From positions 11,164,580 to 11,228,579 of the forward strand of contig NZ_AP025018.1 of the NCBI RefSeq assembly GCF_019977735.1: a DNA stretch of 64,000 bases. The letters run 5' to 3'. This DNA is from Calothrix sp. PCC 7716. Lineage in GTDB: Bacteria; Cyanobacteriota; Cyanobacteriia; Cyanobacteriales; Nostocaceae. The position numbers and the translations under genes were made by a program. Shown piece after piece: positions 3,868 through 62,520 of this stretch (position 1 is the first letter of the stretch; each line of letters starts with the position of its first letter). The notes below the pieces were generated by a model. The model worked only from the letters and a program-made list of their open reading frames with translations. It did not search any database and was not told the DNA's origin.

Positions 3868-3886
3868 AAATGTGACTAAAAAGTGA
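3868..3886 (-). promoter_or_regulatory. TCAC 11-bp direct-repeat site upstream of sodA
   Basis: On the minus strand this reads TCACTTTTTAGTCACATTT, two TCAC half-sites exactly 11 bp apart. A -10-like TATACA follows after about 16 bp and the sodA ATG after 79 bp. This is one of 15 such sites in the window, all oriented toward the gene they precede. Confidence 0.7.
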
Positions 3887-4051
3887 CAGCTAATTAGGTA
3901 GTTTCCAAGGTTGAGATTGTAATTATGTATCTCAAGAAGGATACGTTATGCCAGAAAGCTTGCTAATATTTGTGTATAACTACGTTAAAAAGAATAGTTC
4001 AACAAATTGTAAAGCAATATTTAAATAAATTAAGAAGAAAGGAGTCAAATC

Positions 4052-4321
4052 ATGAATATTTTAGCTTGGATTGTTTTGGGTTTAATTGCGGGTGCTATAG
4101 CCAAAATGATTTATCCCGGTTCACAAGGAGGCGGTTTAATAGGCACTCTTCTATTAGGAGTTGTTGGCGCCTTTATTGGAGGTACTTTGTTTACTTTATT
4201 ACAGACGGGTACATTTACGCTAACTGCAACCAGTCTCTCTTTAGGTGGTATAGTTGTTGCAGTTATTGGTGCCTTAATAGCTGTATTCTTGTACAACTTG
4301 CTTACTCGTAGAGCGGCTTAG
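4052..4321 (+). CDS. GlsB/YeaQ/YmgE-family small membrane protein
   Basis: An 89-residue hydrophobic protein with three predicted helices and glycine-rich turns (GLIAGAIAKMIYPGSQGGGLIGTLLLGVVGAFIGG). This matches the GlsB/YeaQ/YmgE family (UPF0410, often called transglycosylase-associated protein). Members are short stress-induced inner-membrane proteins of unknown biochemical role. Ribosome site AAAGGAG lies 9 bp before the ATG. The gene is alone between sodA (divergent) and the P-type ATPase and is followed by a strong terminator hairpin, so it is probably monocistronic. Confidence 0.85.
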   Translation: MNILAWIVLGLIAGAIAKMIYPGSQGGGLIGTLLLGVVGAFIGGTLFTLLQTGTFTLTATSLSLGGIVVAVIGALIAVFLYNLLTRRAA

Positions 4322-4362
4322 TCAGTATTTTTAATTACCTTTCAAACCAAATGCAAAATAAT

Positions 4363-4399
4363 ATATGGAGGTACAATTACTTGTACCTCCATATTTTTT
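4363..4399 (+). terminator. intrinsic terminator after the GlsB-like gene
   Basis: A perfect 14-bp stem (ATATGGAGGTACAA pairing with TTGTACCTCCATAT) with a 4-nt loop, followed by TTTTTTG. It lies 42 bp after the stop codon of the gene ending at 4321. Confidence 0.85.
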
Positions 4400-4441
4400 G
4401 CATAATTATAATTATGTCATCAATAGATAGATTTAAATTTT

Positions 4442-4552
4442 AATCCCCCCTAGCCCCCCTTAATAAGGGGGGGACAAGAAAAGAAACAATAATCTTAGCT
4501 CTCATACGTAAACAAATCTTAGCCCCCCGAATTCACGGGGGGTTGGGGAGAT
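4442..4552. repeat. C-rich/G-rich dispersed inverted repeat, copy 1
   Basis: The element starts AATCCCCCCTAGCCCCCC and ends GGGGGGTTGGGGAGATT, with an internal CCCCCC..GGGGGG pairing. A second copy with the same ends is at 36588-36703. It looks like a non-coding mobile hairpin. Its right end abuts the TCAC site of the ATPase promoter. Confidence 0.7.
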
Positions 4553-4556
4553 TCTA

Positions 4557-4575
4557 TCACATTTCAATCACATTT
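4557..4575 (+). promoter_or_regulatory. TCAC 11-bp direct-repeat site upstream of the P-type ATPase
   Basis: TCACATTTCAATCACATTT: two 8-bp half-sites repeated at 11 bp, the most perfect copy in the window. After a 15-bp gap comes TATAAG (4591-4596), giving a predicted transcript start near 4602. Confidence 0.75.
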
Positions 4576-4651
4576 TTATTCGAGAATATATATAAGCTAA
4601 TTTTTGCAGAGTAACGTGGATGCAGATGTAAACAATTATAAACTAAAGAAT

Positions 4652-7462
4652 ATGAGAGTAGAATCAGAAGAAATAATTCAATCGAGCCAATGGCATCAAC
4701 TATCTACCAATGAAATTACGCGCCACTTAGAAACTAATTTAGAAACAGGTTTAAGCGAGTCAGAAGTTGCCAAAAGACAATCACATTTCGGCGCCAACGA
4801 ACTCAAGGCGAAACCAGGCACTAGTCCTATAGTAAAATTTTTACAGCAATTTAACCAACCACTACTATATATATTACTAATTGCAGGCGCCATCAAGGCA
4901 ATAATTGGACAGTGGGTAAATGCTTGGGTAATTTGGGGTGTAACGTTAATTAATGCCATCATTGGTTTTATTCAAGAATCAAAAGCTGAAAGTGCTATTG
5001 CTGCTTTAGCTTCTTCTGTGCGAACTAATGCCACTATTTTAAGAAATGGTAAAAAAATACAAGTTCCTTCTACTGAGTTAGTACCTGGAGATATAGTATT
5101 ACTTGCTTCGGGTGACAAAGTACCAGCAGATTTACGTCTTGTACAAACGCGGAATTTGCAAATTAATGAATCTGCACTGACAGGTGAATCAATAGCAGTT
5201 GAGAAAAATTATCAACCTGTTAATCCTGATATTCCTCTTGCAGAACGCACTAACATGGCTTACGCAGGCAGCTTTGTTACATTTGGCACTGGTAGTGGTA
5301 TTGTTGTTGCGATTGGAGAAGCTACAGAAACAGGGCGCCTAAGTCAGCTAATTGAACAAGGTACAAGTTTAAAAACTCCATTAACCCGTAAGTTTGATAA
5401 ATTTAGTCGGACTTTACTATATATTATTCTTGGTATTGCAGCGCTAACATTTGCAGTTGGATTAGGATATGGTAATTCTTGGGCAGAAATGTTTGAAGCT
5501 GCTGTTGCTTTTGCAGTCAGCGCTATTCCTGAAGGTTTGCCGGCAGTAGTTACGGTAACTCTAGCAATTGGAGTTTCACGTATGGCACGGCGCCATGCAA
5601 TTGTTCGCAAATTACCCGCAGTAGAAACTCTCGGAGGCGCCACTGTTATCTGTTCTGATAAAACTGGTACTTTGACAGAAAACCAAATGACAGTACAAGG
5701 TATTTATGCAGGAGGTCAATATTATACAGTTACAGGAGTCGGTTATGCACCATCTGGGGAAATCTTATTAAATGAAAAGCAAGTTGACCTTAATACTTCA
5801 CCAGTACTTGTAGAGTGTTTAGTTGCTGGACTTTTATGCAATGACGCACGCTTAGAACAAAAAGATGAACAATGGCAAGTTATTGGCGACCCAACAGAAG
5901 GAGCATTAGTAGCTGCTGCAAATAAAGTTGGATTCAACAAGAGTAGTTTAGAGCGCGAAACCAAGAGACTTGATGTAATTCCCTTCGAGTCTGAGTTTCA
6001 ATACATGGCAACTTTACATCAAGAAAAGAAACTTTCACCTAATACTCAGAACTCAACACTCAGCACTCAGCACTCAGAACTCAGCACTCAGAACTCAGCA
6101 CTCAGCACTCAGCACTCAGAACTCAGCACTATTTACATTAAAGGTTCAGTAGAAGCAATTCTCAAATCTTGTCGGCAGATGTTAGATGCAGAGGGTGAAA
6201 TAGTGCCCATACAAGCTAATACTATACATTCGTCTGTTAATGCAATGGCTCAACAGGGTTTAAGAGTATTAGCTTTTGCTAAAAAAAATGTCCCCACAAC
6301 TAAAAACTCTCTTGACCACGGGGATATTCAAAACGATTTGATTTTTTTAGGGTTGCAAGGAATGATTGACCCACCCCGAAGCGAAGCTATCAAATCAGTA
6401 CAAGCCTGTCAAGAAGCTGGTATTCAAGTAAAAATGATTACAGGCGACCATGCTGTAACTGCACAAGCAATAGCCAAGCGCATGGGATTTAATAAAAATG
6501 GCGAAGTGATGGCTTTTACCGGACAACAACTTGCCCAAATGGATAATCAACAACTTAAAACAGCTGTTGAAGATGGGGTAGTATTTGCTCGTGTGGCGCC
6601 TGAACAGAAACTGCGTATTGTTGAGGCACTACAATCTAAAGGTGAAATAGTTGCCATGACAGGTGATGGTGTTAATGATGCACCTGCACTAAAACAAGCA
6701 GATATTGGCATTGCAATGGGAGGCGCCGGAACTGAGGTAGCAAAAGAAGCTTCGGATATGATATTAACAGATGATAATTTTGCTTCGATACAAGCTGCGG
6801 TTGAAGAAGGGCGAACCGTTTATCGTAATTTGCTCAAAGCTATTGCTTTTATATTACCAGTCAACGGTGGCGAATCGATGACAATTTTAATTAGTGTATT
6901 ATTTGCCAGAGTATTACCTATATTATCTTTACAAGTTCTCTGGTTAAATATGGTTAACTCCATTGCTATGACTGTACCTCTGGCATTTGAGCCTTCTTCA
7001 AAACGAGTCATGCGACAACCACCACGTAATCCTCGCCAACCTTTACTTTCTGGCAGTTTAATTAAGCGCATCGCAGTAATTTCTGTTTTCAACTGGATTT
7101 TAATTTTTGGCATTTTTGAATGGACAAGACAAACAACAGCAAATATTGACTTAGGACGTACTATGGCAATTCAAGCTTTAGTTGCTGGTAGAGTCTTTTA
7201 TCTTTTAAGTATCAGCAAGCTAGGTGTAATAATTATCGATACGATACGTGGAGTTAAGCACAATATTAGCGATGCTTCCGCAATTATTATTGGTATTGTG
7301 GCAACTATAGTCTTACAAATAATTTTTAGTCAATGGAGTTTAATGAACAATTTGTTTTCAACGGCGCCGCTGAATCTAAATCAATGGTTAATTTGTATTG
7401 TTGCGGGTTTACCTATGATTCTAGTAGCTGCATTAGCTAATCGTTTTGACCCTCTTGATTAA
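4652..7462 (+). CDS. P-type cation ATPase, Ca2+ (type IIA/PacL-like), intact
   Basis: About 936 residues, full length for a type II P-ATPase. It has the N-terminal cation-ATPase domain ([13 protein letters not shown]), the actuator motif TGES, the membrane helix-4 motif [10 protein letters not shown], the phosphorylation motif [12 protein letters not shown], the hinge [21 protein letters not shown] and the C-terminal helices. PEGL is typical of Ca2+ pumps. It should export Ca2+ (or a related cation) using ATP. The frame is open from a TTG at 4604, but the predicted transcript starts about there, so I prefer ATG 4652. A heptamer repeat is inserted in the nucleotide-binding domain (6044-6130). 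A decayed paralogue lies at 19105-21930. Confidence 0.9.
6044..6130 (+). repeat. heptanucleotide short tandem repeat inside the P-ATPase gene
   Basis: Twelve 7-nt units of ACTCAGC/ACTCAGA (one ACTCAAC) followed by ACT. Since 21 nt equals seven codons, the array stays in frame and encodes a heptapeptide repeat such as ELSTQHS and ALSTQNS. Such STRR heptamers are common between genes in heterocystous cyanobacteria; inside a catalytic domain it is unusual. Confidence 0.9.
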
Positions 7463-11009: not shown

Positions 11010-11028
11010 TCATATTTAAATCACATTT
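11010..11028 (+). promoter_or_regulatory. TCAC 11-bp direct-repeat site upstream of the SLH gene
   Basis: TCATATTTAAATCACATTT: half-sites TCAT and TCAC at an 11-bp period. The downstream AT-rich stretch contains TATATT at 11040. The start codon is 90 bp downstream on the same strand. Confidence 0.65.
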
Positions 11029-11118: not shown

Positions 11119-11994
11119 ATGAATAGATTTTTAAGATTTTTATCATTATTTGCTACATTGCCAGCTTTATGCTTTGTAGCTGATGCAATAGTGCCTTCAT
11201 CAACTAACGCTCAAATAGCACAAACGGCGCCACAAACAGCACCACGAACAAGCTTCCCAGATGTTCCATCAAACTACTGGGCAAGACCTTTTATTGAGCG
11301 TTTGGCACAAAGGAATATTTTAGCCGGATATCCAGATGGTACATTTAGACCTGAACAAACAATGCAACGTGATGAATTAGCAGCAGTAATTCGTAGAGCT
11401 TTTAATCAACCACCAGTAAAACAGATAGAAAGCGGTTCGGTATTTAACGATGTTAATCAAGGATATTGGGCAGAACGTCCGATTGAATCAGCATCTGAAC
11501 AAGGTTTTATGTCTGGTGATGGGCAAGGCAACTTTCGACCGAACCAACCTGTCACCAGAGTTCAAGCAATATCAGCTTTGAATAGAGGCTTAAATTTAGC
11601 TTCTGGCACACCAACGGCAACTGCATCAACACAACGAGCAGCAAGAAGAAGACCCGTATTTGTTCCTATTGCAATCACTTCTTTGATGCAGTCTGTAATA
11701 CTTCCTAGGGCAGAAGCGGCGCCAACTCAAGCACCAACAAATCAAGCTACACAACCAAATTCCGCTTCAGAAATTGTTAATAAATATTACACAGATGCGA
11801 ATAAAATTCCCCAAAATGCTGTTAGCGATGTCGCCGCAGCAACACAGCAAAATATAGTGGTGAATTACCCAAATCCAAAAGTTCTTAATCCTAATAAAGC
11901 AGCTACACGCGCCGAAATTGCAGCATTAGTTCATCAAACATTGGTTAATCAAGGACAACTCGAACCAATAGCTAGCCAATATATCGTTAAGTAG
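11119..11994 (+). CDS. secreted S-layer homology (SLH) domain protein
   Basis: A 291-residue exported protein with a signal peptide (hydrophobic stretch, cleavage probably near NAQIAQ). SLH domain 1 (about 50-100) has FPDVPSNYWARPFIERLAQRNIL and GYPDGTFRPEQTMQRDELAA. SLH domain 2 (about 112-160) has FNDVNQGYWAERPIE and GNFRPNQPVTRVQA. A degenerate third copy (about 220-285) has VLNPNKAATRAEIAALV. SLH domains usually bind peptidoglycan-linked polymers. No porin barrel follows, unlike cyanobacterial SLH porins, so it is probably a free wall-bound protein. The ribosome site AGGAGG is strong. It ends in a hairpin shared with the convergent kinase gene. Confidence 0.88.
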   Translation: MNRFLRFLSLFATLPALCFVADAIVPSSTNAQIAQTAPQTAPRTSFPDVPSNYWARPFIERLAQRNILAGYPDGTFRPEQTMQRDELAAVIRRAFNQPPVKQIESGSVFNDVNQGYWAERPIESASEQGFMSGDGQGNFRPNQPVTRVQAISALNRGLNLASGTPTATASTQRAARRRPVFVPIAITSLMQSVILPRAEAAPTQAPTNQATQPNSASEIVNKYYTDANKIPQNAVSDVAAATQQNIVVNYPNPKVLNPNKAATRAEIAALVHQTLVNQGQLEPIASQYIVK

Positions 11995-11998
11995 TTAA

Positions 11999-12034
11999 GT
12001 AGGTTGGGTGGAGCGCAAGCGTAACCCAACCTAC
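11999..12034. terminator. bidirectional terminator-like hairpin (dispersed GTAGGTTGGGT element)
   Basis: A perfect 11-bp stem, GTAGGTTGGGT pairing with ACCCAACCTAC around GCGCAAGC. It begins 5 bp after the SLH stop and contains the stop codon of the kinase gene that converges from the right. A related, shorter hairpin is at 58834-58861. Confidence 0.65.
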
Positions 12035-13299
12035 AATGGTAAAATAATTGTGAAGGTGGAGCCTTTATCAATTACACTTTTGACACGAATGTATCCTCCG
12101 TGTGCAGAAACAATTTGTTGAACAATAGATAACCCTAAACCATATCCACCGGACGAGCGGGCGCGTTTTTTATCAACTCGGTAAAATCGCTCGAAAATAT
12201 GTGGTAAATCAGCTTCTGGAATGCCCATCCCAGTATCTATTATTTCAATAACTGCCCAAGAAGACTGAGCAAATAAATTTAACTGAACTTGACCACCTGC
12301 TTTTGTATATTTACATGCGTTAGTTAATAAGTTAACTACTGCTTGATGCAGTAAATCTGCATCACCCAGTACAGTTAAGCTATTATTTGGTAATTTATAA
12401 GTAAGATTGATATGCTGTGCAATTTCTAGTTTTGTGTATTGGTCAGCTATTTTTAAAAGTTCGCTTTTTAAATCAACTGGTTGCAAAGATTCAGGAGCTA
12501 ATCGACCTGCATGACGTGCTAGAATCAATAAGTTATTTATCAGAGTACTCATTGACTTCGCAACATCAACAATATTTTCAAACCGTTGACGTTGTACAGA
12601 AGGGTTATTAGAAATTAATCCATACTGAGCATTGCTGTTAATTGCTGACAAGGGTGAGCGTAATTCATGAGAAGCATCAGCAGTAAAGCGTTGTAGTTGG
12701 TCATAGCTTTCACGAATTGGTTGCATTGCTAGTCCTCCTAACCACCAACCAGCTAGCCCAATAATGAATAAGGTTGCTGGAACTGTTAAAAGTAAAACTA
12801 AGCGTAAATGAGCCAAATCATTTTGAGTATATGTTAGTGGTGTTGCAACTTGAAGATAACCAATTAATAAATCATCTTGATATATTGGAAGTGTTAACTC
12901 ACGCAACCAAGCATCCCGGAACGTTCCTCTAACTTGATGATACTCAGGTTTTATTGTATGAAATCCGAGAGTGGTTGTTAAACGCTCAGGTGGAGTGGCG
13001 CCGAAAAATTGTACCATCTGCTTTTGAGTATCATACCAACGCGCGTACACAAGCTCACTATCTACTGGTGATACGTTACTACCTAACAGCGGCACATTTT
13101 CCAAATCAAGCTGCTGCTTAAGTGTGTCATACTTTGCATTTACTGCCATTACTCTAGACTTTTTGTCTAGTAGTTGGTCGAGATTCCTTAACGAATCTAA
13201 AACTTCTTGGTAATATAGCACTGAGGCAAAACCTACCAAAATACTTCCCATTGTTAAGGTAAACCATAAAGCTAAATTACTACGGCTACGACTAAACAT
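12031..13299 (-). CDS. sensor histidine kinase (RppB/NrsS-like)
   Basis: A 422-residue membrane kinase with a helix near 10-30, an extracytoplasmic sensor of about 130 residues, a second helix (170-190), the dimerisation/phosphoacceptor helix with [12 protein letters not shown] (His211), the N box [10 protein letters not shown] and the ATP lid motifs [20 protein letters not shown] and [13 protein letters not shown]. The layout and N-terminus resemble cyanobacterial RppB/NrsS kinases that sense metals or redox. Its cognate regulator is probably the OmpR-type gene at 13912-14589, but a lipoprotein gene on the opposite strand lies between them. Its ATG overlaps the ATG of that gene in a shared CATG. 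Confidence 0.85.
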
Positions 13300-13915
13300 G
13301 ACAACTCATATTTTTATTTCAATGTACTGGTTACAAAAATTACATTATTCTCAATTTACACTTTTGTTACTGCCACTGTTTTTAATTAGTTTTGCTTCTT
13401 GTGGTGAATCGTTTACAAACCAGATATTAAGCCGTTCATATAGTACCATAAGTAAGTTACAAGCAGACAAACAAACGGTAAAAGCACAATTTGCAGTCAA
13501 CGTACTAGTTACGGCAGTTGAAGTTGAAAAAAAGCGAGAGTCAACTATAGTTGAATATCAAACAGAAAATTCTGTACTCAAAAGAGTAAGATTTGTTCTA
13601 CCAGTTACAGAAGTAAATACTGCTAAAACCATAATTGCTCAAGAAATGGGACAGACGCAAGCGAAAGATGTTTTGCAAGTTGGTAGAAAAATGCAGGTAC
13701 GGTCTGCATTCAAAGTTTTAGGAATTTTGGCTGAAATTGAAAAAAAGCGAGGAGTTACTTTAGTTACGGTTAATACTGCTAACTCTATACTACAAAACTT
13801 AGAGTTCGAGTATCCAGTTACAGATTTACCCACTATTAAAACTACACTAATTCAACAGCTAGGATTATCTAGAGAAGATATTGCCAGATTTGTAAGTTAT
13901 CGAATCAAAAACTAA
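13298..13915 (+). CDS. lipoprotein with two internal repeats, antisense inside a two-component operon
   Basis: A 205-residue protein with a hydrophobic signal segment and lipobox-like FASC (Cys35). The rest holds two related copies of about 60 residues: [21 protein letters not shown]...[13 protein letters not shown] and [21 protein letters not shown]...[14 protein letters not shown] recognise no family. It lies on the plus strand exactly between the regulator and kinase genes on the minus strand, sharing CATG with the kinase start and overlapping the regulator stop by 4 bp. That position suggests a ligand-binding partner of the kinase, which is inference. A second start at 13322 is possible. 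Confidence 0.7.
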
Positions 13916-14589
13916 TTATCCGGCGCCTTCAAACTATAACCCATACCATAGACCGTTTTTATCCACGAATCGGCGCCAACGAGTTGCAAACGATTTCGTA
14001 ACTTGCGTACTAATACGGTTAGTGCATTGCTTTCTGGCTCAGAACCCCACTCCCACAATGCTTCTTCAATTTGCTCGCGCGTTAAAATTTGATTTTGGTG
14101 ACGCATTAAATACTCTAGTAATTGAGTTTCGCGCGGTGATAACTCAACAGTTTGTTCGTTACGCTCAGTTGTTAATGTATCTAGATGCAATTGCAGGTCA
14201 GCAACACGGAGAGTATTTCCGACCCAAGTAGGGGAACGTCTACCCAAAGCACGCACGCGCGCTAAAAGTTCTACTAGGTCAGCAGGTTTAACAAGATAGT
14301 CATCTGCTCCCGCATCTAAACCCTCTACTTTATCGAGTGTAGTATCCTTCGCAGTAAGCATCAACACAGGCGCCGTTTTGCCAAGAAGTCGATACTGCCG
14401 ACAAAGACTCAAGCCGCTAACAGTGGGTAGCATCCAGTCTAAAATCAGCAAATCATATTCCTTTTTAGACAAAAGCCACTGTGCAGTGTCGCCATCTTCA
14501 ACGCCATCTACAATATATCCAGCTTCAGAGAGTACACCCTGTAATGGCTCTAACTGTTCTGGGTCATCTTCTACAAGTAATATTCGCAT
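13912..14589 (-). CDS. OmpR-family response regulator (RppA-like)
   Basis: A 226-residue regulator. The receiver domain starts MRILLVEDD, with phosphoacceptor Asp51 (LLILDWMLP), the conserved Thr/Ala region (MLTAKDTT) and Lys (YLVKPADL). The C-terminal winged helix runs through VELSPRETQLLEYLMRHQNQILTREQI to TVYGMGYSLK. It should bind direct-repeat DNA as a head-to-tail dimer when phosphorylated. The frame opens 5 codons earlier (14604); MRILL at 14589 is the usual start. It is a candidate for recognising the 11-bp TCAC repeats, but its own upstream region has no such site. Confidence 0.87.
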   Translation of the reverse strand: MRILLVEDDPEQLEPLQGVLSEAGYIVDGVEDGDTAQWLLSKKEYDLLILDWMLPTVSGLSLCRQYRLLGKTAPVLMLTAKDTTLDKVEGLDAGADDYLVKPADLVELLARVRALGRRSPTWVGNTLRVADLQLHLDTLTTERNEQTVELSPRETQLLEYLMRHQNQILTREQIEEALWEWGSEPESNALTVLVRKLRNRLQLVGADSWIKTVYGMGYSLKAPDN

Positions 14590-14745
14590 ATAATAATTTA
14601 ACAACTAATGCACCTAAAATTGCAAGGCTTTATTTTCAAAGTACAAGAGTCAAACTTATTCTATATCTGCCATTAGCAGCATTTTATAAAAGTTTAAAAA
14701 AACTAATTTTCACCTGACGGGGTAAAACTAACATTTTGTTCGAGT

Positions 14746-16041
14746 TTAAATTGGTGTGATTAAAACTTTGTCTACTCGCGTACCGTCCATATCGACTACC
14801 TCAAACCGTAGTCCATCCCATTCAAAACGATCGCCTGCTTTCGGTATATATTTCAAGAAAGTAATTACAAATCCAGCAAGGGTATGGTAATTTCCCGTTT
14901 CTTCTTCAGCTAGTGATTCTTTATCAAGCAAATCTTTGAGTTCATCGGTTGGAAGCAAACCATCTACTAGTAAGGAGCCATCTTCTCGCTTAACCACCAT
15001 TGGTTGCTCTAAATCTTCTCTTGCAGTAATATCGCCAACTATTGCTTCCATTAAATCATTAAGCGTTACCAAGCCTTCAATGTTACCATATTCATCAGTA
15101 ATTAGCGCCATATGTATACCGGTTCGTTTAAATTCCTCCAAAACTTTTAAAGCTGTCATATTTTCGGGAACATGCAGGGGTGGTTGAAGTATTGCCTCAA
15201 GGTTAACTTCTTGTCTGCTTAAACGCGCGGATAGAAAATTTTTACCGCGCAAAATACCCAAGCAGCTGTCCAAATTTTCTCTAGCCACAGGAAATCTGGA
15301 ATGATTACTTTCTCTAACCAAATGTTCAAGTTCTTCTAATGGTGTGTTAATATCGAGCCATGTGATATCAAATTTCGGCGTCATCAAAGTTTTGATACGA
15401 CGGTCACCGAAACGAAATACTCGCTCAAGCATTTCTTGTTCGGATTCCTCGAAAGTCCCCGACTCTGTAGCTTGCTCTATTAGCACTTTAATTTCTTCTT
15501 CAGTCATTGCTTGCTCTTCAGTTGCCCGCACACCCAAAATATTCAGCAATGTATCAGTAGAAAAACTGAGAATACGTACAAATGGAGCTGTAATAAACGA
15601 AAGTGACCGCATCGGTTTAGCCACCGTGCAAGCTATGTTTTCAGGATTACTCAATGCGACTCGTTTAGGTGCCAGTTCCCCAACCACTAAAGATAAATAG
15701 GTAATAATAGTTACTACTATTACAACACTAATACCTTCGCTGTAAGGTCTTAGAAGTGGAATAGTATCTAATGTAGGCTTTATCCGTTGAGCTAAGGTTG
15801 CTCCACCCACGGCGCCGCTCAAAATGCCAATTAATGTAATACCAATCTGGACAGTAGAGAAAAAATCATTGGGAGAGTTTACCAGTCGCAATGCAGCTCT
15901 AGCTTTAGAATTTCCTCGACTTGCCATTTGCTCAAGGCGAACTTTACGAGATGATACAACAGCAATTTCTGAACCTGAAAATATACCGTTAGCAATAATG
16001 AGTACAAAGACAAAGAAAATTTCTGTAGCAATGGCAGACAT
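14746..16041 (-). CDS. CNNM/CorC (hemolysin C)-family membrane protein with CBS pair
   Basis: A 431-residue protein. The N-terminal CNNM (DUF21) membrane domain starts MSAIATEIFFVFVLIIANGIFSGSEIAVVSSRKVRLEQ. Two CBS domains follow (about 200-330, RIKTLMTPKFDITWLDI and LITDEYGNIEGLVTLNDLMEAIVGDI), then a C-terminal CorC/HlyC domain (FEWDGLRFEVVDMDGTRVDKVLI). Family members move or regulate Mg2+/Co2+ (some Na+) and bind nucleotides at the CBS pair. The hemolysin label is historical. A paralogue with the same start and order is at 62648-63970. It has a TCAC repeat 168 bp upstream. Confidence 0.88.
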   Translation of the reverse strand: MSAIATEIFFVFVLIIANGIFSGSEIAVVSSRKVRLEQMASRGNSKARAALRLVNSPNDFFSTVQIGITLIGILSGAVGGATLAQRIKPTLDTIPLLRPYSEGISVVIVVTIITYLSLVVGELAPKRVALSNPENIACTVAKPMRSLSFITAPFVRILSFSTDTLLNILGVRATEEQAMTEEEIKVLIEQATESGTFEESEQEMLERVFRFGDRRIKTLMTPKFDITWLDINTPLEELEHLVRESNHSRFPVARENLDSCLGILRGKNFLSARLSRQEVNLEAILQPPLHVPENMTALKVLEEFKRTGIHMALITDEYGNIEGLVTLNDLMEAIVGDITAREDLEQPMVVKREDGSLLVDGLLPTDELKDLLDKESLAEEETGNYHTLAGFVITFLKYIPKAGDRFEWDGLRFEVVDMDGTRVDKVLITPI

Positions 16042-16209: not shown

Positions 16210-16228
16210 AAATGTGATTAAAAAGTGA
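16210..16228 (-). promoter_or_regulatory. TCAC 11-bp direct-repeat site upstream of the CNNM gene at 14746
   Basis: The minus strand reads TCACTTTTTAATCACATTT, with an extra TCAC just upstream (rc of GTGA at 16231). A TATAAA -10-like box follows about 20 bp downstream. Confidence 0.7.
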
Positions 16229-16245: not shown

Positions 16246-17619
16246 TTATAATATTTCTTTATTTTGCGGAATAGTAACAGTAAAAGTCGTGCCAACCCCC
16301 TCTTTACTTTCTACATCAATTTGTCCTTGATGTAGTTCTATACATTTTTTTACAACTGCTAATCCCAATCCTGTACCAAGAATACCCAAGGCATTTTCAC
16401 CTCGTCGAAAAGGTTCGTACATCTCTTGTTGAGTTGTTTCAGAGATGCCAATTCCTTGGTCTTTGACCTGAAATATTACAGCTTGATTTTGGCATTTTAA
16501 TTTAAAATAAACATTTGGACTCTGAGGTGAATATTTAATAGCGTTGTAAAGTAAATTACTTAAAATAGAATATAATAATTTTTCATCTACCCATGCGTTA
16601 CTTGCACTACCTTCCATCTCAAATTGAATTGCATGGCTAGATTCGCTTAAAGTTTGCATATCTTCAACTAAATTGAGGCAAAAACTCTGCATTTCTAATA
16701 GTTGAGGTTTATACTCTAATTTTCCGGCTTCTGCTCTTGCTAATGTCAAAATATCTGAGAGTAATTGAGTCATTAATCGAGCATTAGTTTGGATGCGGTA
16801 AAGATTTTTTAGCCTCTTTTTTTCGACAAGAGGTTGAAGACTTTCTTCTAAAAGCTGAGACGACCCCAAAATGATACTTAAGGGTGTACGAAACTCATGA
16901 GAAGCCATTGAGAAAAATTGCAATTTGAGTTCACCTAATTCTTTTTCTTTTGTAAGTTGGAGTTGTTTCGCTTCTGCTTGTTGACGTTTTACTAATTGTC
17001 GATAAAGTTGAGCATAAACACCAAAAAGCAAAGTAAATGTTAACAAAGTGCCAAAAATTTCAATTAGCATTCTTGACTGAATGTTAGATTGAGATTGTTT
17101 TACCCATACATCTAATGCTTGTTCTTCTTGACTTTGCATTTGTTCAATAAGTTGCTGAATTTCATTGCGGTTACTATTATTACCTGCCACTAACTGAGCT
17201 TGTTTTGTTTGTAAAGAGGGATTTTTTCTATATAATTGAATAGTTTGATTAGATATCACGAGTCTTTGAGCCAGTAAAGATTCTAGTGCGATTAATCTTT
17301 GCTTTTGATTGGAATCATCTGCAAATAGCTTTTCTAATATTTTGATTCTTGGCTTGATTTTTTGCATAGCTTGATTGTAACGCTGTAATTCTAAGTCATC
17401 TCCCAAAAGTATATAACCGCTTCGCCCCGATTCAGCTTCGTTTAAATGAGCAACGACACCAACTAAAGTCTCAATAACTTCATGAGTCTCTTTTACTTTT
17501 ACAATCGTTTCTGCTAATCTGGTAGCATTTTGGTAAGAAATAAAACTAATATACCCAGTAACCGTCATCGCCATCGCGAAACCGCTTGCAATCCATTTTC
17601 CCTCTACAGACCATTTCAT
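16246..17619 (-). CDS. CHASE3-domain sensor histidine kinase
   Basis: A 457-residue kinase with membrane helices at about 10-28 and 187-205. The extracytoplasmic CHASE3-type sensor between them is recognisable from LNEAESGRSGYILLGDDLELQRYNQA. A short coiled coil leads to MASHEFRTPLSIILGSSQLLEE (His241), then the N box NLLYNAIKYSP, DQGIGI and GTGLGLAVVKKCIELHQGQI. It is divergent from the OmpR-type regulator at 17678, 58 bp away, and the two are probably partners. The sensed signal is unknown. Confidence 0.87.
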   Translation of the reverse strand: MKWSVEGKWIASGFAMAMTVTGYISFISYQNATRLAETIVKVKETHEVIETLVGVVAHLNEAESGRSGYILLGDDLELQRYNQAMQKIKPRIKILEKLFADDSNQKQRLIALESLLAQRLVISNQTIQLYRKNPSLQTKQAQLVAGNNSNRNEIQQLIEQMQSQEEQALDVWVKQSQSNIQSRMLIEIFGTLLTFTLLFGVYAQLYRQLVKRQQAEAKQLQLTKEKELGELKLQFFSMASHEFRTPLSIILGSSQLLEESLQPLVEKKRLKNLYRIQTNARLMTQLLSDILTLARAEAGKLEYKPQLLEMQSFCLNLVEDMQTLSESSHAIQFEMEGSASNAWVDEKLLYSILSNLLYNAIKYSPQSPNVYFKLKCQNQAVIFQVKDQGIGISETTQQEMYEPFRRGENALGILGTGLGLAVVKKCIELHQGQIDVESKEGVGTTFTVTIPQNKEIL

Positions 17620-17677: not shown

Positions 17678-18352
17678 ATGCGTATTTTAGTTGTTGAAGA
17701 TGATGTACAAATAGCGGATATGCTAGCGGAAGCGTTGACAAATCGTCAATACACGGTAGATGTTGTGCAAGATGGTGAAGCCGCATTAAATTACGTGGAG
17801 ACATTTGATTATAACTTAATTGTGCTAGATATTACGTTGCCTAAGCTAGATGGTATTAAGTTTTGTCAAAAACTGCGCTCACGTAATTTGCCTGTTCCCA
17901 TTTTAATGCTTACTGCTCGCGATACTATCGCCGATAAAATTATTGGACTTGATGCAGGCGCCGATGACTATATGGTCAAACCGTTTGACTTAGGAGAATT
18001 GATGGCACGTATCAGGGCACTTTCACGTCGCGGTAACTCTCGACCAGGAATAAATTTATCCTGGGGAAACTTATGTATCAATCAAAGTACCTATGAAGTT
18101 TTCTATGAAGAGCAACTGTTAAACCTGACACCAAAGGAATACGCAATTTTAGAGTTACTCGTTTCTAGTGGTCGTCGTGTTTTGAGCAGACCGGGTATTA
18201 TCCAGCAAGTTTGGTCTATAGAAGACTCTCCTACCGAAGACACCGTTAAGTCCCACATCAAAAGTTTACGCCAAAAACTCAGAGAAGTGGGGGCGCCTGA
18301 CGAGTTTATCGAAACAGTTCATGGACTGGGTTATCGTCTAAAGCAACTTTAA
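17678..18352 (+). CDS. OmpR-family response regulator next to the small-RNA array
   Basis: A 224-residue regulator. The receiver starts MRILVVEDD, with Asp51 (LIVLDITLPKLDG), the switch MLTARDT and Lys in YMVKPFDL. The winged helix runs LNLTPKEYAILELLVSSGRRVLSRPGI to TVHGLGYRLKQL. The divergent CHASE3 kinase is the likely partner. One TCACATTT half-site (17654-17661) is in the divergent promoter. Immediately downstream are four promoters carrying 11-bp TACCCGATT direct repeats, the spacing expected for an OmpR-family dimer chain, so these are its most natural targets. That link is inference. Confidence 0.87.
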   Translation: MRILVVEDDVQIADMLAEALTNRQYTVDVVQDGEAALNYVETFDYNLIVLDITLPKLDGIKFCQKLRSRNLPVPILMLTARDTIADKIIGLDAGADDYMVKPFDLGELMARIRALSRRGNSRPGINLSWGNLCINQSTYEVFYEEQLLNLTPKEYAILELLVSSGRRVLSRPGIIQQVWSIEDSPTEDTVKSHIKSLRQKLREVGAPDEFIETVHGLGYRLKQL

Positions 18353-25212: not shown

Positions 25213-25231
25213 TCATATTGTATTCACATTT
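25213..25231 (+). promoter_or_regulatory. TCAC 11-bp direct-repeat site upstream of the gene at 25319
   Basis: TCATATTGTATTCACATTT: TCAT and TCAC half-sites 11 bp apart, directly after the UPF0182 stop. GATAAC (25244) is a possible -10. The start codon is 87 bp downstream. Confidence 0.65.
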
Positions 25232-25912: not shown

Positions 25913-25970
25913 TTCAATTTCTACCCGTGGAAAGTATAAACATGTAGAATAATTAATTAGATTAATATCT

Positions 25971-26060
25971 GGGCAATGGAGCTTGCCATTAACCGCCATT
26001 AAATATAATAAAAGGCTGATAGCTCCTACTTTCCTCTACTTGTAGCAGGATAGTAGGGCT
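25971..26060 (+). ncRNA. structured leader RNA, candidate Na+-I (DUF1646-type) riboswitch
   Basis: Stem GGAGCT (25978-25983) pairs with AGCTCC (26021-26026), enclosing conserved-looking AACCGCCATTAAA and GGCTGAT. It is followed by a nested stem CCTACT / TCCT / CTAC with GTAG / AGGA / AGTAGG (26025-26056). This lies in the leader of a cation/proton antiporter gene. From memory the GGAGC...ACCGC...GGCTGAT.GCTCC pattern resembles the Na+-I riboswitch core, but I cannot align it here. The structure is well supported; the family name is tentative. Confidence 0.45.
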
Positions 26061-39166: not shown

Positions 39167-39185
39167 AAATGTGAATAAAAAATGA
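39167..39185 (-). promoter_or_regulatory. TCAC-type 11-bp direct-repeat site upstream of mgtE
   Basis: The minus strand reads TCATTTTTTATTCACATTT, with TATGTG about 14 bp downstream. The upstream half-site has one mismatch. Confidence 0.62.
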
Positions 39186-42744: not shown

Positions 42745-43161
42745 TTACCTCAACGGGTTTGATCTCGCACGGTTAGGACCACCTGCCCAAGGTGGAGGTC
42801 CTTCGGCTGGACGGATATCAATGACAGAACCATCTGCACGAGTTATAGAAAAAGCATCTAATTCACCTTTTTTACCTAACTCCCCTCTGACGGTAACTTG
42901 TTCACCAGGTTGAAGATTTATTTCACGCCACCAACGCGGACCTGCATCTACAATTAATTGCCCAGTTCCATCATCAATAATAAAATCATTACCAACTATG
43001 TTAGTAACTTTACCCGAAACAATTGTACCGTTAGAACGTTGTTGTAAATCACGGATATTAGTTGTATTGTTCGTTTGAGCTTGTGAAGAAGGAGCAACTG
43101 CAATTATAGAACTACAAATTGTTGTAGCTAAAGTTAAGCCTAGTAATATTCGTTTATTCAT
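42745..43161 (-). CDS. secreted OB-fold protein
   Basis: A 138-residue protein with a signal peptide (residues 1-28, ending SSQAQ). A single OB-fold-like domain follows: GTIVSGKVTNIVGNDFIIDDGTGQLIVDAGPRWWREINLQPGEQVTVRGEL. It resembles YgiW/BOF-type or nucleic-acid-binding OB folds exported to the periplasm. The tail is Pro/Gly-rich (AEGPPPWAGGPNR). The function is unknown. A TCAC-type site lies 45 bp upstream. Confidence 0.7.
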   Translation of the reverse strand: MNKRILLGLTLATTICSSIIAVAPSSQAQTNNTTNIRDLQQRSNGTIVSGKVTNIVGNDFIIDDGTGQLIVDAGPRWWREINLQPGEQVTVRGELGKKGELDAFSITRADGSVIDIRPAEGPPPWAGGPNRARSNPLR

Positions 43162-43206: not shown

Positions 43207-43225
43207 AAATGTGACGAGAAAATGA
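43207..43225 (-). promoter_or_regulatory. TCAC-type 11-bp direct-repeat site upstream of the OB-fold gene
   Basis: The minus strand reads TCATTTTCTCGTCACATTT with AATAAG about 16 bp downstream. The rest of the gap to 43496 holds only a small CTCT/AGAG hairpin and AT-rich sequence that must include the RND promoter. Confidence 0.62.
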
Positions 43226-56696: not shown

Positions 56697-57533
56697 TTAC
56701 CTTTCCACAACAGGGCGCCCTTGACTATCGATATCTAATTCTTCACGACGTATTTTTTCTTGAGCTTCGACTGTTTCTGTATCAACAACTTTTTTGACTC
56801 GTACTTCTTCTTTAACGACAGCTTCTTTTTGAATATCTGCCTTTTCTTCGTAAACGTCCATACGAGCAACTTCACCTGAACGAAAGGCATTTGCTGGCGC
56901 CTTCTCTGGTTTTGTACTTGTAGGAGAAGTACGCTCAATAACTACTCTTTCCTTCTCAACGGGAACAGCAACACGAGCAGTTTCAGTTTCAACGTGCTTA
57001 CCGATGGAAACTTCCCCAGCCTTTTGACGTTGTTTATTAGCAATCAATCTTTCTTCATACAACTTCAAACTTTGACCATCAGATTCTGGCATATCGTATA
57101 AAGAAGAGTCTTGCTCATATTCATAAGTACCACGGTCATAACCAGCAGGTTGAGTTAAACCGGAAGAAGCAACAGAACCGCGATAAACACCACGTACTTG
57201 CTCCTCGTAGTCATAATCAATCTCTTCTAATTTATCGTAATTCGGCAACTCTTCCACCTGCTCTTTGGTTAAACCTTTGGCATAAACTATTTTGTCGGTG
57301 TAACGAATATCTGCACGACCAACAGGTAGTAAAACTTTTTTACCAAAAATCCAAAAGCCTGTATCTACAACTATATAACGGAAGCGACCGCTTGTCTGAT
57401 CAACTAGTATGTTGTGTACCGTTCCAACTTTTTCGTGTCTCTCTGTGTACACGTCGAAATTATTGATAACATCAACATCAGAGCGACTGTCAATGGAATC
57501 TGTATAGTAATCTGTAATCTTTACAAGTGCCAT
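56697..57533 (-). CDS. PRC-barrel / DUF2382 stress protein, copy 2
   Basis: A 278-residue protein. The PRC-barrel (about 20-95) has VINNFDVYTERHEKVGTVHNILVDQTSGRFRYIVVDTGFWIFGKKVLLPVGRADIRYTDK. A short linker leads to DUF2382 (about 155-270), LKLYEERLIANKQRQKAGEVSIGKHVETETARVAVPVEKERVVIER. It is strongly similar to copy 1 at 29284-30261 along both domains, with the Gln/Pro linker of copy 1 replaced by a shorter Tyr/Gly stretch. Unlike copy 1, a TCAC repeat lies 43 bp upstream. Confidence 0.87.
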   Translation of the reverse strand: MALVKITDYYTDSIDSRSDVDVINNFDVYTERHEKVGTVHNILVDQTSGRFRYIVVDTGFWIFGKKVLLPVGRADIRYTDKIVYAKGLTKEQVEELPNYDKLEEIDYDYEEQVRGVYRGSVASSGLTQPAGYDRGTYEYEQDSSLYDMPESDGQSLKLYEERLIANKQRQKAGEVSIGKHVETETARVAVPVEKERVVIERTSPTSTKPEKAPANAFRSGEVARMDVYEEKADIQKEAVVKEEVRVKKVVDTETVEAQEKIRREELDIDSQGRPVVER

Positions 57534-57576: not shown

Positions 57577-57595
57577 GAATGTGAGCAGAAAGTGA
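57577..57595 (-). promoter_or_regulatory. TCAC 11-bp direct-repeat site upstream of PRC/DUF2382 copy 2
   Basis: The minus strand reads TCACTTTCTGCTCACATTC. AT-rich AACAATAAAAG follows as the -10 region. The start codon is 43 bp away. Confidence 0.68.
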
Positions 57596-57650: not shown

Positions 57651-58004
57651 TTAAGTAAGAGGTGCTATTAATCTAAGGAGGATTGAATTAATAATTGCCA
57701 AACTAATAGAACCCAGTAATGCGCTCCAAAATCCATACCGTAAGCTAAAACCAGGAACTATTACAGCAGCTAACCCAAAAGTGATAGCATTCAAAATAAA
57801 CAAAAATAACCCTAAAGTTAGAATAATAAATGGAAAGGTAAAAAACGTGAGAATTGGTAGTAAGATAGCGTTTAAGATTCCAAAGACTGCTGCTGAAATA
57901 GCAGCCTTACCAAAACCATCAACATCAATTCCTAAGAAAGGCAATCTGGAAATAATTAAAAAACTGACGGCAGTTACTAACCAGGTAATGATGATTCCAA
58001 CCAT
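57651..58004 (-). CDS. YvlD-like (phage holin family 4) small membrane protein
   Basis: A 117-residue protein with four hydrophobic helices. A conserved pattern AAISAAVFGILNAILLPILTFFTFPFIILTLGLFLFILNAITFGLAAVIVPGFSL is typical of the YvlD/PF04020 family. The phage-holin label is formal; bacterial members belong to envelope-stress regulons and are not lytic. A TCAC repeat lies 69 bp upstream, which fits a stress role. Confidence 0.82.
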   Translation of the reverse strand: MVGIIITWLVTAVSFLIISRLPFLGIDVDGFGKAAISAAVFGILNAILLPILTFFTFPFIILTLGLFLFILNAITFGLAAVIVPGFSLRYGFWSALLGSISLAIINSILLRLIAPLT

Positions 58005-58073: not shown

Positions 58074-58092
58074 AAATGTGATTCAAAAGTGA
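58074..58092 (-). promoter_or_regulatory. TCAC 11-bp direct-repeat site upstream of the YvlD-like gene
   Basis: The minus strand reads TCACTTTTGAATCACATTT with ATAAAT about 17 bp downstream. Confidence 0.7.
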
Positions 58093-58770: not shown

Positions 58771-58789
58771 TCACTTTTTAATCACATTT
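58771..58789 (+). promoter_or_regulatory. TCAC 11-bp direct-repeat site upstream of the lipoprotein at 58925
   Basis: TCACTTTTTAATCACATTT, then a 15-bp gap to TATAAG (58805-58810), the same geometry as at the ATPase promoter. The rest of 58584-58924 holds AT-rich sequence and the small hairpin at 58834. Confidence 0.73.
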
Positions 58790-58924: not shown

Positions 58925-59386
58925 ATGATGTTTTTCAAACGTTTCAGCAGAAAACTCACTTATTTAAGCTTAACGAAGCTAGCTGCTTTCATTATTGCCT
59001 GTAGCTTATTAACTGCTTGTGCGAACGCTTCTAATACACCTCAAGCTGGAGCGCAACCAGGAATACAAGAGTCTCCTTCATTGGAGCAAGTTAATAATGC
59101 TTCCCAAAATCAAACTAGTGATTTACCAGAAACTGTAAGTAACGCTGTTTTGAAAGATGCTTCTAAACGCGCGGGACAATCTAATGATAAGTTAAAAATT
59201 ATTGCTTCTGAATCGCGCACTTGGAGAGACGGATGTTTGGGTTTAGCTGAACCTGGTAGTATTTGTACTCAAGTTTTAGTTCCTGGATGGGAAGTAAAAG
59301 TTAGCAATGCAGAATCACAAACTTGGGTTTACCGCACTAATAAATCTGGTAATCTTGTTAAGCTTGACCCTGCATCACAATCTTAA
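58925..59386 (+). CDS. lipoprotein with a DGCLGL-type domain
   Basis: A 153-residue lipoprotein with lipobox LTAC (Cys32). The C-terminal 80 residues (LPETVSNAVLKDASKRAGQSNDKLKIIASESRTWRDGCLGLAEPGSICTQVLVPGWEVKV...WVYRTNKSGNLVKL) match a small domain that I know from several cyanobacterial exported proteins. It has a conserved Cys pair (DGCLGL and CTQ), likely a disulfide. The function is unknown. The leader is about 115 nt long and contains a hairpin. It converges on the YihY gene 6 bp away. Confidence 0.7.
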   Translation: MMFFKRFSRKLTYLSLTKLAAFIIACSLLTACANASNTPQAGAQPGIQESPSLEQVNNASQNQTSDLPETVSNAVLKDASKRAGQSNDKLKIIASESRTWRDGCLGLAEPGSICTQVLVPGWEVKVSNAESQTWVYRTNKSGNLVKLDPASQS

Positions 59387-59391
59387 TTTAT

Positions 59392-60333: not shown

Positions 60334-60350
60334 ATAATTTATTTACGTAG

Positions 60351-60367
60351 GGTGGGCACTGCCCACC
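60351..60367. repeat. short palindromic repeat GGTGGGC-ACT-GCCCACC, copy 2
   Basis: The same 17 bp as at 27774-27790, here between the cytochrome stop and the YihY start. Confidence 0.6.
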
Positions 60368-60383
60368 GTACAACTTACAACGA

Positions 60384-62408
60384 TTAGAAAGATGCAACTT
60401 GTTGAAGTGATGTCTCTGGTAAAACAACCGGGTTATCATCAATTGACAACAAGAATTGAATTAAATCAGTTTGTTCTTGAGCGCTATAACCAGCTTTTTC
60501 GTCAACCCAGTATTCATGACCACTACCATCCACATTTGAACGTTGTAAGTCAGAATTAGATTGATTAGCAGCAACTGCAACCGCGCGTAAATCTCGGTCA
60601 ACTAATACTCGTAAACTAGCTTCCGCATCAGGTATAATACCACGCATTAAAGTACCAGCCATTCCCAATTCTTCAGGTTTGGCAACTATAAAGCGTCCAT
60701 TTTCATCTGGTTTAATTGACGACTCACTAGCTGCGACACCACCATCATGAAGGTAAGGTGCGCTAAGATACAGCCCGATTAAATTTTGCACCTTGTAACC
60801 ACCATCTGGGTCACTCAGAGCATAAGCAAGCTTAATATCCTCGGATGGTGTGATGTCTGTTGGTACAGATAGTACAGGTGGGTTAGGAGGTAAAGGTACA
60901 GGTGTATTTGGTGGATAAGTATCAGGGGGTGCAAATTCAAGAGCAAATTTTTTGGAGGCAGGCGCCCGTTTCGGTTGAGTCGCAACTTCTTTAACTGGAA
61001 CTATTTTGTGGTTTGTAAAGTAACGTCCACTATGGCATTCAGCACAATTCGCTTTTTGAAAAATAGCTGCACCTCGTCTTAAAGTCTCAATATCAGCAAT
61101 TTGATGACTCGGTGGCGCCAAAGTATTTTGAAAAGCTGACATGCCATTAAGTTGTGCTGCGACAGGTAAACCAGGAGTGTTTGCCATTAACCCGTTTTGC
61201 ATAAACAAGCTACCTTTCGGGTATTCCGGCATTTTAATGACACTATTGATACCAGGGTTTCCTGGCGTGGGGTCTACTTCATCAAAAAATTCTGATGGTT
61301 TGGCGCCGTCTGGAAGTTTAAATTTTTGACTTGATGCATTTTGCAGCATTGTGCCTAAATAAACTTCCTTATCAATTCCTAAAATTTCCTCACTTTCATC
61401 TGCTGTAGTTGTAGGGTCAGCATTTAATCCGAACACAGCATTATTTAATGTAGTTAATCCGTGGAACCAACCAATTGAAGCAACACCGCTCCAAGCATAG
61501 GGAAATGTTTCGTGGGTGTAAGAAGTAGGTATTTGTGCTGAGTTATTTTTCAAGTCACCATTCGATACAAAGTTACCAGGTGGCCATGAAAGAATAGCTG
61601 CATCTACTTCATCTTCCATTGTTTTTGCATCGGGCAGTTTTGCAGTTTCCCCTTTGTTGTTAATAAAAGTATGCTCACCTGGTGGAATTTGGTTTGGGTT
61701 GACATCTGTCTGACGGAAGAGTGCCGCAGAATTACTTGCCATCGCAATTAATGGTCCCAAATTAATATCTGTATTAATGGCGCCTTCAAGAATACGTCCA
61801 GTTTTTTCGCTTACCGTTGCATGACACAAAGCACAAGTAATTCCGGCTTTAATAGTACCTTTGTTAACATGGGTAACTAAGCCCAAGGGAAATAAAGAGC
61901 CTAATGGTACATCTAGACCAGTATTTAATACTGTACCAGCTTTGAAAGTGCGATTTCCTATAGTAATATCCTTGTCTATAGGGACTTGCAAGTTAGTAGT
62001 TCCCTGCCCTTTCAAGCTTAGAACAGCTTTGGCGATACTGCGTAGATTAATAGGACCATCCAGAATTCCTACAACATCTGTAAATAGAATTTCATTACCG
62101 AATGTTTCTTGGTAAAAAGCATCACGCCCTAAATCTATCAATTCTTCCGTAACTTTAACGGCGCCGTTATCAGGGGAAAGCGCTTCCTGTCCTGCTTGGA
62201 TTTGTAATAGTTTGCTAGCTTCTTGTTTAGAGACAGAATACCCTAACACATCATAAGAGCCAACTCCTCGTGGTGGAGATTGTGTAAAAGGTGTGTAAGT
62301 GGTATTAATGTTTGGTGGTCTTCCTGGTAAAGTTATTTCTAGCTGAAAACCTAAAAAGCCAACAAAGACCAGCACAGAGATGAGGATGAGAATCGTGCGA
62401 AATCGCAT
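60384..62408 (-). CDS. two-heme c-type cytochrome, cytochrome c peroxidase-like
   Basis: About 674 residues with an N-terminal membrane or signal helix (MRFRTILILISVLVFVGFLGFQL). Two heme c motifs are visible, CALCH (about 192-196) and CAECH (about 455-459). The second is followed by GRYFTNHK, and YLHDGGVAA lies further on, as in di-heme peroxidases and related oxidases. The spacing of about 260 residues between hemes is larger than in standard CcpA, so it may be a related oxidoreductase. It acts outside the cytoplasm. The frame opens at 62477; GAGGAAA just before ATG 62408 decides the start. A TCAC repeat lies 93 bp upstream. Confidence 0.8.
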   Translation of the reverse strand: MRFRTILILISVLVFVGFLGFQLEITLPGRPPNINTTYTPFTQSPPRGVGSYDVLGYSVSKQEASKLLQIQAGQEALSPDNGAVKVTEELIDLGRDAFYQETFGNEILFTDVVGILDGPINLRSIAKAVLSLKGQGTTNLQVPIDKDITIGNRTFKAGTVLNTGLDVPLGSLFPLGLVTHVNKGTIKAGITCALCHATVSEKTGRILEGAINTDINLGPLIAMASNSAALFRQTDVNPNQIPPGEHTFINNKGETAKLPDAKTMEDEVDAAILSWPPGNFVSNGDLKNNSAQIPTSYTHETFPYAWSGVASIGWFHGLTTLNNAVFGLNADPTTTADESEEILGIDKEVYLGTMLQNASSQKFKLPDGAKPSEFFDEVDPTPGNPGINSVIKMPEYPKGSLFMQNGLMANTPGLPVAAQLNGMSAFQNTLAPPSHQIADIETLRRGAAIFQKANCAECHSGRYFTNHKIVPVKEVATQPKRAPASKKFALEFAPPDTYPPNTPVPLPPNPPVLSVPTDITPSEDIKLAYALSDPDGGYKVQNLIGLYLSAPYLHDGGVAASESSIKPDENGRFIVAKPEELGMAGTLMRGIIPDAEASLRVLVDRDLRAVAVAANQSNSDLQRSNVDGSGHEYWVDEKAGYSAQEQTDLIQFLLSIDDNPVVLPETSLQQVASF

Positions 62409-62501
62409 AGTTTCCTCACTAGTAGTTTTTTCTATTGATTCAAAATTACAAACATTGTTTTTGCAAAAGCAAATCATTTATCGCCAATAACAATATGCCT
62501 T

Positions 62502-62520
62502 AAATGTGAATGAAAAGTGA
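62502..62520 (-). promoter_or_regulatory. TCAC 11-bp direct-repeat site upstream of the cytochrome gene
   Basis: The minus strand reads TCACTTTTCATTCACATTT with GATAAA about 19 bp downstream. Confidence 0.7.

Follow-up and report, generated by a model that had tools for sequence, protein, structure and literature searches.

The present analysis concerns a stretch of 64,000 bases from the cyanobacterium Calothrix sp. PCC 7716 (the window; C1:11164580-11228579 of a 12,367,066-base genome in 10 contigs, A+T 62%) and a promoter element that recurs between its genes, a direct repeat of two TGTCAC half-sites with an 11-bp period. Direct repeats spaced by one helical turn are characteristic of OmpR/PhoB dimers. 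The proposal that such sites constitute one OmpR/PhoB-type regulon gathered in one island came from a sequence-only reading of the window, and it is now strongly supported by the confinement of the sites, by the co-occurrence and adjacency of a regulator gene and by the fixed geometry of the promoters. It is probable (about 0.77) that the boxes are the sites of RR098, an OmpR/PhoB-type response regulator encoded in the window (13912-14604, minus strand), and that RR098, once phosphorylated by the kinase HK096 (12031-13299, minus strand), activates a single regulon in the manner of PhoB.

All 15 sites noticed earlier in the window, with two half-sites 11 bp apart, are present, the minus-strand ones starting 18 bp above the coordinate by which they are numbered, e.g. 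3886 (-). The spacing of the half-sites is strict. With gap 7 the TCACN7TCAC pair was seen 12 times, as compared to 0-3 times with each of 24 other gaps in the range 0-24, and TCAYN7TCACATT 12 times at gap 7 versus 0-2 times at other gaps. Leave-one-out scores with a 22-column matrix were between 16.0 and 32.1 for 14 sites and 4.0 for the last, 36728-36746 (plus strand). The repeat is there, but because of this low score and the absence of both the A at +26 and the T at +30 that mark the -10, the site is doubtful. It is probably no genuine site, so that 14 strong members of the original set remain as the working set. The window has four more TCAYN7TCAY pairs, at 20835, 37325, 54286 and 63608; these were excluded, as all lie inside open reading frames (ORFs).

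The consensus of 136 non-redundant sites, drawn from this genome and from related loci, is yTGTCACTTTynaGTCACATTTrTtnTy. An A at +26 is present in 131 of them and a T at +30 in 127; both occur together at the exact offset in 124 sites, as compared to 39 for the next commonest offset. These two bases form a -10-like ANNNT, bases +25 to +30 from the first T and 6 bp past the second half-site, and because both lie outside the 20-column matrix that found the sites they provide independent support. The sequence-only reading had placed a -10-like hexamer 12-20 bp downstream of most sites; this variable distance does not hold, as a single fixed offset is used instead. The first position of the -10 is unconserved (column 25: A59 C28 G23 T26) and a -35 consensus is absent from these promoters. 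Taking columns 25-30 as the -10, the box is predicted to cover about -39 to -19. No third half-site was found in the 136 sites and no conservation beyond about -3 to +38, therefore the element reads as a two-half-site box plus a -10 and not as a mobile repeat. By its conserved columns the element appears to be a full promoter, a box with an ANNNT -10 at a fixed distance. Before redundant copies were collapsed, 9 of 152 sites overlapped an ORF of at least 80 codons by at least 10 bp, in DNA with a coding fraction of 0.83. The next gene ran in the same direction as the site in 123 cases and against it in 22, and 7 sites had no further gene within the stretch.

The strong sites of this genome are confined to one island. 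Over the whole genome the exact pattern TCAYNTTNNNNTCACATTT matches 14 times, always between 11168447 and 11261794, and the reversed pattern matches once. Allowing one mismatch adds 14 matches, 6 of them in the island region. A scan with up to two mismatches was discarded as background (332 matches versus 394 in the reversed control), and the pattern counts are restricted to zero and one mismatch. A looser pattern that includes the -10 bases gave 29 genome matches, 19 of them in the island, with 4 in the reversed control; 9 of the 10 matches outside the island resemble one repeat family.

For a scan less dependent on the window, a sequence-only promoter model was made from sites of other genomes: 50 were drawn at random from the 66 eligible, and removal of one from the near-copy locus L105 left 49. 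Its training loci had been found with a window-derived matrix, so the model is not free of the window. The entire genome was scanned alike, 150 of 9715 first-look candidates being fully scored. The model gave 19 matches at E<0.01, and all 19 fall in 11168431-11262132, a span of 94 kb that makes up 0.76% of the genome; outside the island the first match has an E of 0.042. With the matrix, 22 sites score above 18.5 in a 264-kb stretch, from window positions 3886 to 142027 (about 138 kb), and no site above 18.5 was found in the 100 kb preceding the window. Three of the 22 are weaker by the model (25213, E 0.047; 116325, E 0.15; 142027, E 2.2). The sites had been described as intergenic and directed toward their genes, and this extends beyond the window: by longest-ORF calls none of the 22 overlaps a coding base and each is followed by a codirectional gene, at a distance of up to 345 bp for 21 of them and of 995 bp for one, versus a codirectional fraction of 0.58 for random intergenic points. 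Genes outside the ORFs tested against Pfam are longest-ORF calls, and orthology was assigned by a score cut-off. Related genomes carry boxes too. Roughly 90 kb ahead of the window a related-looking yet different repeat occurs in three near-identical copies, 0.3-0.4 kb apart (L015 9182, 9554 and 9851, plus strand); they begin TTCACA-N5-TTCACTTTTAG and have an A+T-rich part behind.

The clustering was followed in other genomes as model matches at E<=0.05. All these genomes except PCC 7103 had supplied the model with sites at most 10 kb from the regulator, so the counts lean somewhat to that neighbourhood. In Calothrix sp. PCC 7103 all 19 matches fall in 91 kb, in Scytonema sp. NIES-4073 all 8 fall in 33 kb and in Fischerella muscicola 11 of 15 are on one 54-kb contig. 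The matches are spread in Nostoc sp. B(2019) (11 over three contigs) and Nostoc carneum NIES-2107 (4 at three places). HT-58-2 has 3 matches, 2 of them 3.4 kb apart, and Microcoleus vaginatus HSN003 has 4, of which 2 form a divergent pair. Clustering is thus a feature of several genera, not of all. PCC 7103 was rejected as independent proof, being a congener with a collinear island: the island is inverted there, with 73 of 93 genes as reciprocal best hits at a median identity of 95%, and the closest named regulator and island are those of Calothrix. Of the 20 matrix sites of PCC 7103, 14 precede a gene that is boxed in this genome as well. Boxes have also been gained or lost, a protein-arginine deiminase and a permease being boxed in PCC 7103 and not here.

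Regulators of the OmpR/PhoB kind usually act genome-wide. Here nearly the entire regulon, some 20 transcription units with promoters of their own together with the regulator gene, would occupy about 1% of a 12-Mb chromosome. There is perhaps an even chance that this is a selected 'regulon island', in which box and regulator co-evolve across the taxonomic order; a similar gathering is seen around homologous regulators in Scytonema NIES-4073 and Fischerella muscicola. For the question why some regulons are physically clustered, the set is an unusually clear case. It is an island in Calothrix and Scytonema and spread in Nostoc carneum and Nostoc sp. B(2019), and therefore the cause and the cost of clustering can be compared.

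The core pattern was counted in 195 genomes of the order, with the present genome among them: 48 genomes hold 109 matches, versus 15 in the reversed control. The full pattern, which includes the -10, matches 63 times in 34 genomes, and its reversed form 0 times. Homologues of RR098, taken at E<=1e-70 with the best 14 candidates per genome scored, are present in 69 genomes. Core motif and RR098 are found together in 35 genomes, the motif alone in 13, RR098 alone in 34 and neither in 113 (odds ratio 8.9, p 1.5e-9). RR098 is present in 21 of the 23 genomes with at least two exact core matches and in 32 of the 34 with the full promoter (Fisher p 3e-15), and 22 of these 34 have a site within 10 kb of an RR098 homologue. 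The p-values are optimistic as the genomes are related.

A similar picture emerges from 80 named loci of RR098 relatives, of which 28 hold 53 boxes above 17.5; 20 shuffled matrices gave 0-2, the reversed matrix gave 3 and shifting the spacing by one gave 1 and 0. On the regulator tree the box-bearing loci are clustered (8 changes versus a shuffled mean of 24.1, with 0 of 500 shuffles as low). Boxes above 17.5 occur in 27 of 35 rows, RR098 included, of the two main box-bearing clades and in 1 of 33 of the sister clade. A 39-column matrix trained without the sister-clade and other loci found, at a threshold of 14, a total of 77 boxes in the 80 loci versus 0 in reversed sequences (1 at threshold 12). 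The RR098 clade accounts for 54 of these (in 28 of 34 loci), the sister clade for 17 (in 14 of 33) and the other loci for 6 (in 5 of 13). In the sister clade many boxes have a form particular to their lineage, with half-sites such as TGACAT or TGTTAC, and of the 23 boxes outside the RR098 clade 18 are at most 2.5 kb from the regulator gene. Such co-variation of box and regulator is the strongest pointer to binding of the box by the RR098 family.

RR098 has a receiver and a winged-helix Trans_reg_C domain (PF00072 and PF00486). It passes the NCBIfam RppA model narrowly (253.1 against a cut-off of 250) and stays below PhoB (188.4 bits against the curated 296.2) and RpaB (127.1 against 330). HK096 is the proposed sensor kinase by domain search and fold model. 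The model of its sensor shows a Cache/PDC-like, presumably periplasmic fold between two membrane helices (mean predicted local distance difference test score, pLDDT, of 74.5); the best PDB matches are WalK, PctC and CusS, just two of them at E<=0.001. In this genome RR098 lies directly behind a CNNM gene whose promoter has the best-scoring box, and in two sources the regulator gene has a box immediately in front of it; because of this arrangement autoregulation of RR098 is suggested. Between regulator and kinase, on the opposite strand, is g097 (13298-13915, plus strand), by eye a predicted periplasmic lipoprotein of two similar halves, homologues of which are found beside many regulator-kinase pairs; it may be an accessory sensor.

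Several observations weigh against RR098 as the binder. Thirteen of the 48 core-motif genomes are without an RR098 homologue at E<=1e-70, and 34 of the 69 genomes with RR098 are without an exact core match. At the threshold of 14 no box is seen in 6 of the 34 RR098-clade loci, 19 of the 33 sister-clade loci and 8 of the 13 others. RR098 passes RppA, if narrowly, while HK096 fails RppB (297.5 against a cut-off of 400). Homologues of the second OmpR-type regulator of the window, RR101 (17678-18352, plus strand), are found on box-bearing contigs of four genomes (G178, G091, G165 and G043). Throughout the RR098 clade the recognition helix is almost unchanged, and it hardly differs between this clade and the sister clade; therefore a paralogue could share the box. 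A helix difference between the regulator clades that would explain the box variants was sought, and no clear one was found. Finally, in a scan of the phylum under stricter filters, 36 of 292 genomes have model matches at E<=0.01, and 12 of these 36 are small genomes of one distant family (f47, e.g. G211 and G292) with weak single matches of 17.5-21.7 bits, which are probably background.

With these points counted in, the following course of events is proposed. HK096, a membrane kinase, would phosphorylate RR098. Two protomers of the regulator would then bind head to tail, each at a TGTCAC half-site and one 11-bp turn apart, so as to cover about -39 to -19 and replace the missing -35 element. 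The housekeeping polymerase would be recruited to the ANNNT -10 at its fixed distance, which would be class II activation of the PhoB type. This joint control could extend to 14 or more promoters in the window and to 22 over about 138 kb. It is the promoter geometry that suggests PhoB-like activation; we infer the binding by RR098, its phosphorylation, activation rather than repression, and the signal.

Of the other explanations, the best placed is that RR098 binds the same box and represses, blocking polymerase at the -35 and spacer region until a signal removes it. We regard this as unlikely. RpaB is described in a review (PMC13421787) as repressing when its HLR1 site overlaps -38 to +23 and activating when the site is upstream, and a box predicted at -39 to -19 is within reach of that repressing range. 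On the other hand, promoters with no -35 consensus and an unconserved first T in the -10 have the look of activator-dependent ones, and PhoB activates from a nearly equal distance, as given in PMC1906773.

Still less probable is RR101 as the main binder or as a co-binder. The earlier reading had put forward both OmpR-type regulators of the window, at 13912 and 17678; co-occurrence and adjacency favour the former and disfavour the latter. RR101 is encoded in the island, with a CHASE3-domain kinase (16246-17619, minus strand) divergent from it, both by domain search, and its homologues on the four box-bearing contigs mentioned above are 73-76% identical. Against this, G111 and G045 have 3 and 2 exact core matches and no RR101 homologue at E<=1e-70, homologues of RR101 are spread over 153 of the 195 genomes versus the 48 with the core motif, and it is homologues of RR098 that have boxes within 10 kb in 22 of 34 genomes. 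That the element serves an alternative sigma factor as its promoter and is not a response regulator box is very improbable: the fixed distance from the repeat to the -10-like bases speaks for it, but the -10 is of the housekeeping type (ANNNT), the lineage variants of the box track a response regulator family and the direct repeat of one helical turn is as for OmpR/PhoB dimers. It is scarcely credible that the copies belong to a dispersed repeat or arose by chance in AT-rich intergenic DNA, since even with 62% A+T in the window, and another repeat family supplying most loose-pattern matches outside the island, conservation ends outside columns -3 to about +38, the real matrix finds 53 matches versus 0-2 for shuffled matrices and 3 for the reversed one, the box core in several PCC 7103 promoters is 0.85-0.95 identical where one or both flanks diverge (ungapped comparison), and the spacing, shuffled-matrix, reversed-pattern and reversed-sequence controls rule out chance. 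The repeat family in question is TCATYTTGATTTCATTTT, e.g. at C1:9304303 and C2:20907.

Like the E. coli Pho box, the element has tandem direct repeats (8 bp with a 3-bp linker, an 11-bp period) just upstream of a -10 and without a -35; in sequence the two do not match. The Pho box lies 10 bp upstream of the -10 according to PMC1906773, and by the same counting the distance here is 9 bp. The cyanobacterial SphR box is given in the same source as CTTAACCT in three or more copies, in contrast to the exactly two TGTCAC half-sites found here, and the named targets here differ from those of PhoB and SphR in not being phosphate genes. Identity with the Pho (SphR) regulon was rejected, as the published box is unlike this one and RR098 is below the PhoB cut-off. 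RpaB is likewise an OmpR-family regulator with a direct repeat in cyanobacteria; its HLR1, KTTACAWW-N2-KTTACAWW in PMC13421787, has a 10-bp period versus the 11-bp period and TGTCAC half-site of the present box. The period, the half-site and the score of RR098 below the RpaB cut-off led to rejection of that identity also.

RppA of the Synechocystis 6803 pair RppA/RppB (NrsR/NrsS) is the closest named NCBIfam family for RR098. Its motif is given in PMC13421787 as AAMAWCTCYYWCCCC, with pigments and nickel efflux as targets, and both motif (compared by eye with the consensus) and targets differ from those of the box. This identity was rejected for the motif mismatch and for HK096 falling below the RppB cut-off, though RR098 passes RppA narrowly. 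OrrA, which governs the dehydration regulon of Anabaena/Nostoc, is described in PMC13131328 as a LuxR-family regulator, unlike the OmpR-type one here; there is an overlap in the kind of target, namely dehydration tolerance via avaKa, as far as a reference title tells. No named cyanobacterial box of this sequence was known to the sequence-only reading, and this stands: the SphR, RpaB and RppA motifs differ, and a search of the open-licence literature found no matching named box or regulon. By these comparisons the set would be a new OmpR/PhoB-type regulon with a new regulator-box pair, being neither Pho nor RpaB nor RppA.

Several of the genes behind the boxes are concerned with ions and the envelope, and unless an E is given below each box is a plain match of the model. 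On the minus strand, the box at 3868-3886 (E 8.9e-6) precedes MnSOD (2943-3788), and the best match of all, at 16210-16228 (E 5.2e-6), precedes the CNNM/CorC transporter (14746-16041), followed on the same strand by the response regulator gene. Further minus-strand boxes are at 31831-31849, before an alkaline/neutral invertase (30382-31767), at 32726-32744, before a predicted outer-membrane beta-barrel protein (31891-32577), and at 39167-39185, before the Mg transporter MgtE (37709-39103). The box at 43207-43225 (minus) precedes a BOF-like protein (42745-43161), after which come codirectional permease, methyltransferase and DAGK genes. Those at 57577-57595, 58074-58092 and 62502-62520, again on the minus strand, precede a PRC/DUF2382 protein (56697-57533), a type to which we take AvaK to belong, a YvlD/holin-4_2-like membrane protein (57651-58004) and a 697-aa protein with a weak c-type cytochrome match (60384-62477), then a BrkB-family gene. 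On the plus strand, 4557-4575 precedes a P-type Ca/cation ATPase (4604-7462), then YflT-like, TrkA and DUF3124 genes; 11010-11028 an SLH-domain protein (11119-11994); 25213-25231 (E 0.047) a small membrane protein (25319-25759); 36811-36829 a YflT-domain protein (36881-37573); and 58771-58789 a lipoprotein predicted by eye (58925-59386).

Similar genes recur behind boxes elsewhere. The tally of first genes covers the 116 of 136 sites with a codirectional gene inside the distance limits (20 were dropped), counted over sources, which are fetched stretches collapsed at 80% identity, so that one genome may carry two names. Homologues of the 228-aa barrel protein (31891-32577) are the commonest with 17 sources, followed by Ca-ATPase (10), YvlD and an amino-acid permease (8 each), YflT (7), MgtE and rhodopsin (4 each), and the BOF-like protein, AI-2E transporter, ferric reductase and baeRF (3 each). 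The structural model of the 228-aa protein is a beta-barrel closest to the eight-stranded outer-membrane barrels Ail, OmpA and OmpX, with a best target template-modelling score (TM-score) of 0.71 for OprF; pLDDT in the barrel is mostly 70-93, residues 3-92 are unreliable and the mean is 64.9, with 9 sequences aligned. By Pfam, g155 is a mechanosensitive channel and g148 bacteriorhodopsin-like, each being the second or a later gene behind a box here.

The regulon would thus join ion transporters, MnSOD, an outer-membrane barrel, a mechanosensitive channel, rhodopsin and stress-type proteins, a gene set which suggests an envelope, ion or osmotic stress signal. It offers a promoter code and a probable sensor-regulator pair for poorly characterised genes like YvlD, YflT, DUF2382, the small membrane proteins, the rhodopsin and the conserved barrel, and the boxed genes are predicted to answer one signal.

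Some further features of these loci may be mentioned. The rhodopsin gene g148 (L020 14086-14889, minus strand) lies behind a glucose/sorbosone dehydrogenase-like gene and a box, and its homologues come first after the box in four other sources. The protein-arginine deiminase homologue (L020 2956-4953, minus strand) has a box in PCC 7103 and in G086 and none here. In the window, a search of Rfam at gathering cut-offs gave a fluoride riboswitch alone (RF01734, 46.8 bits, 25963-26035, plus strand), directly before a Na/H exchanger plus Usp gene at 26129. A 1196-aa protein at 32941-36531 (plus strand), which has no Pfam or NCBIfam match, has a homologue in the cluster of G086.

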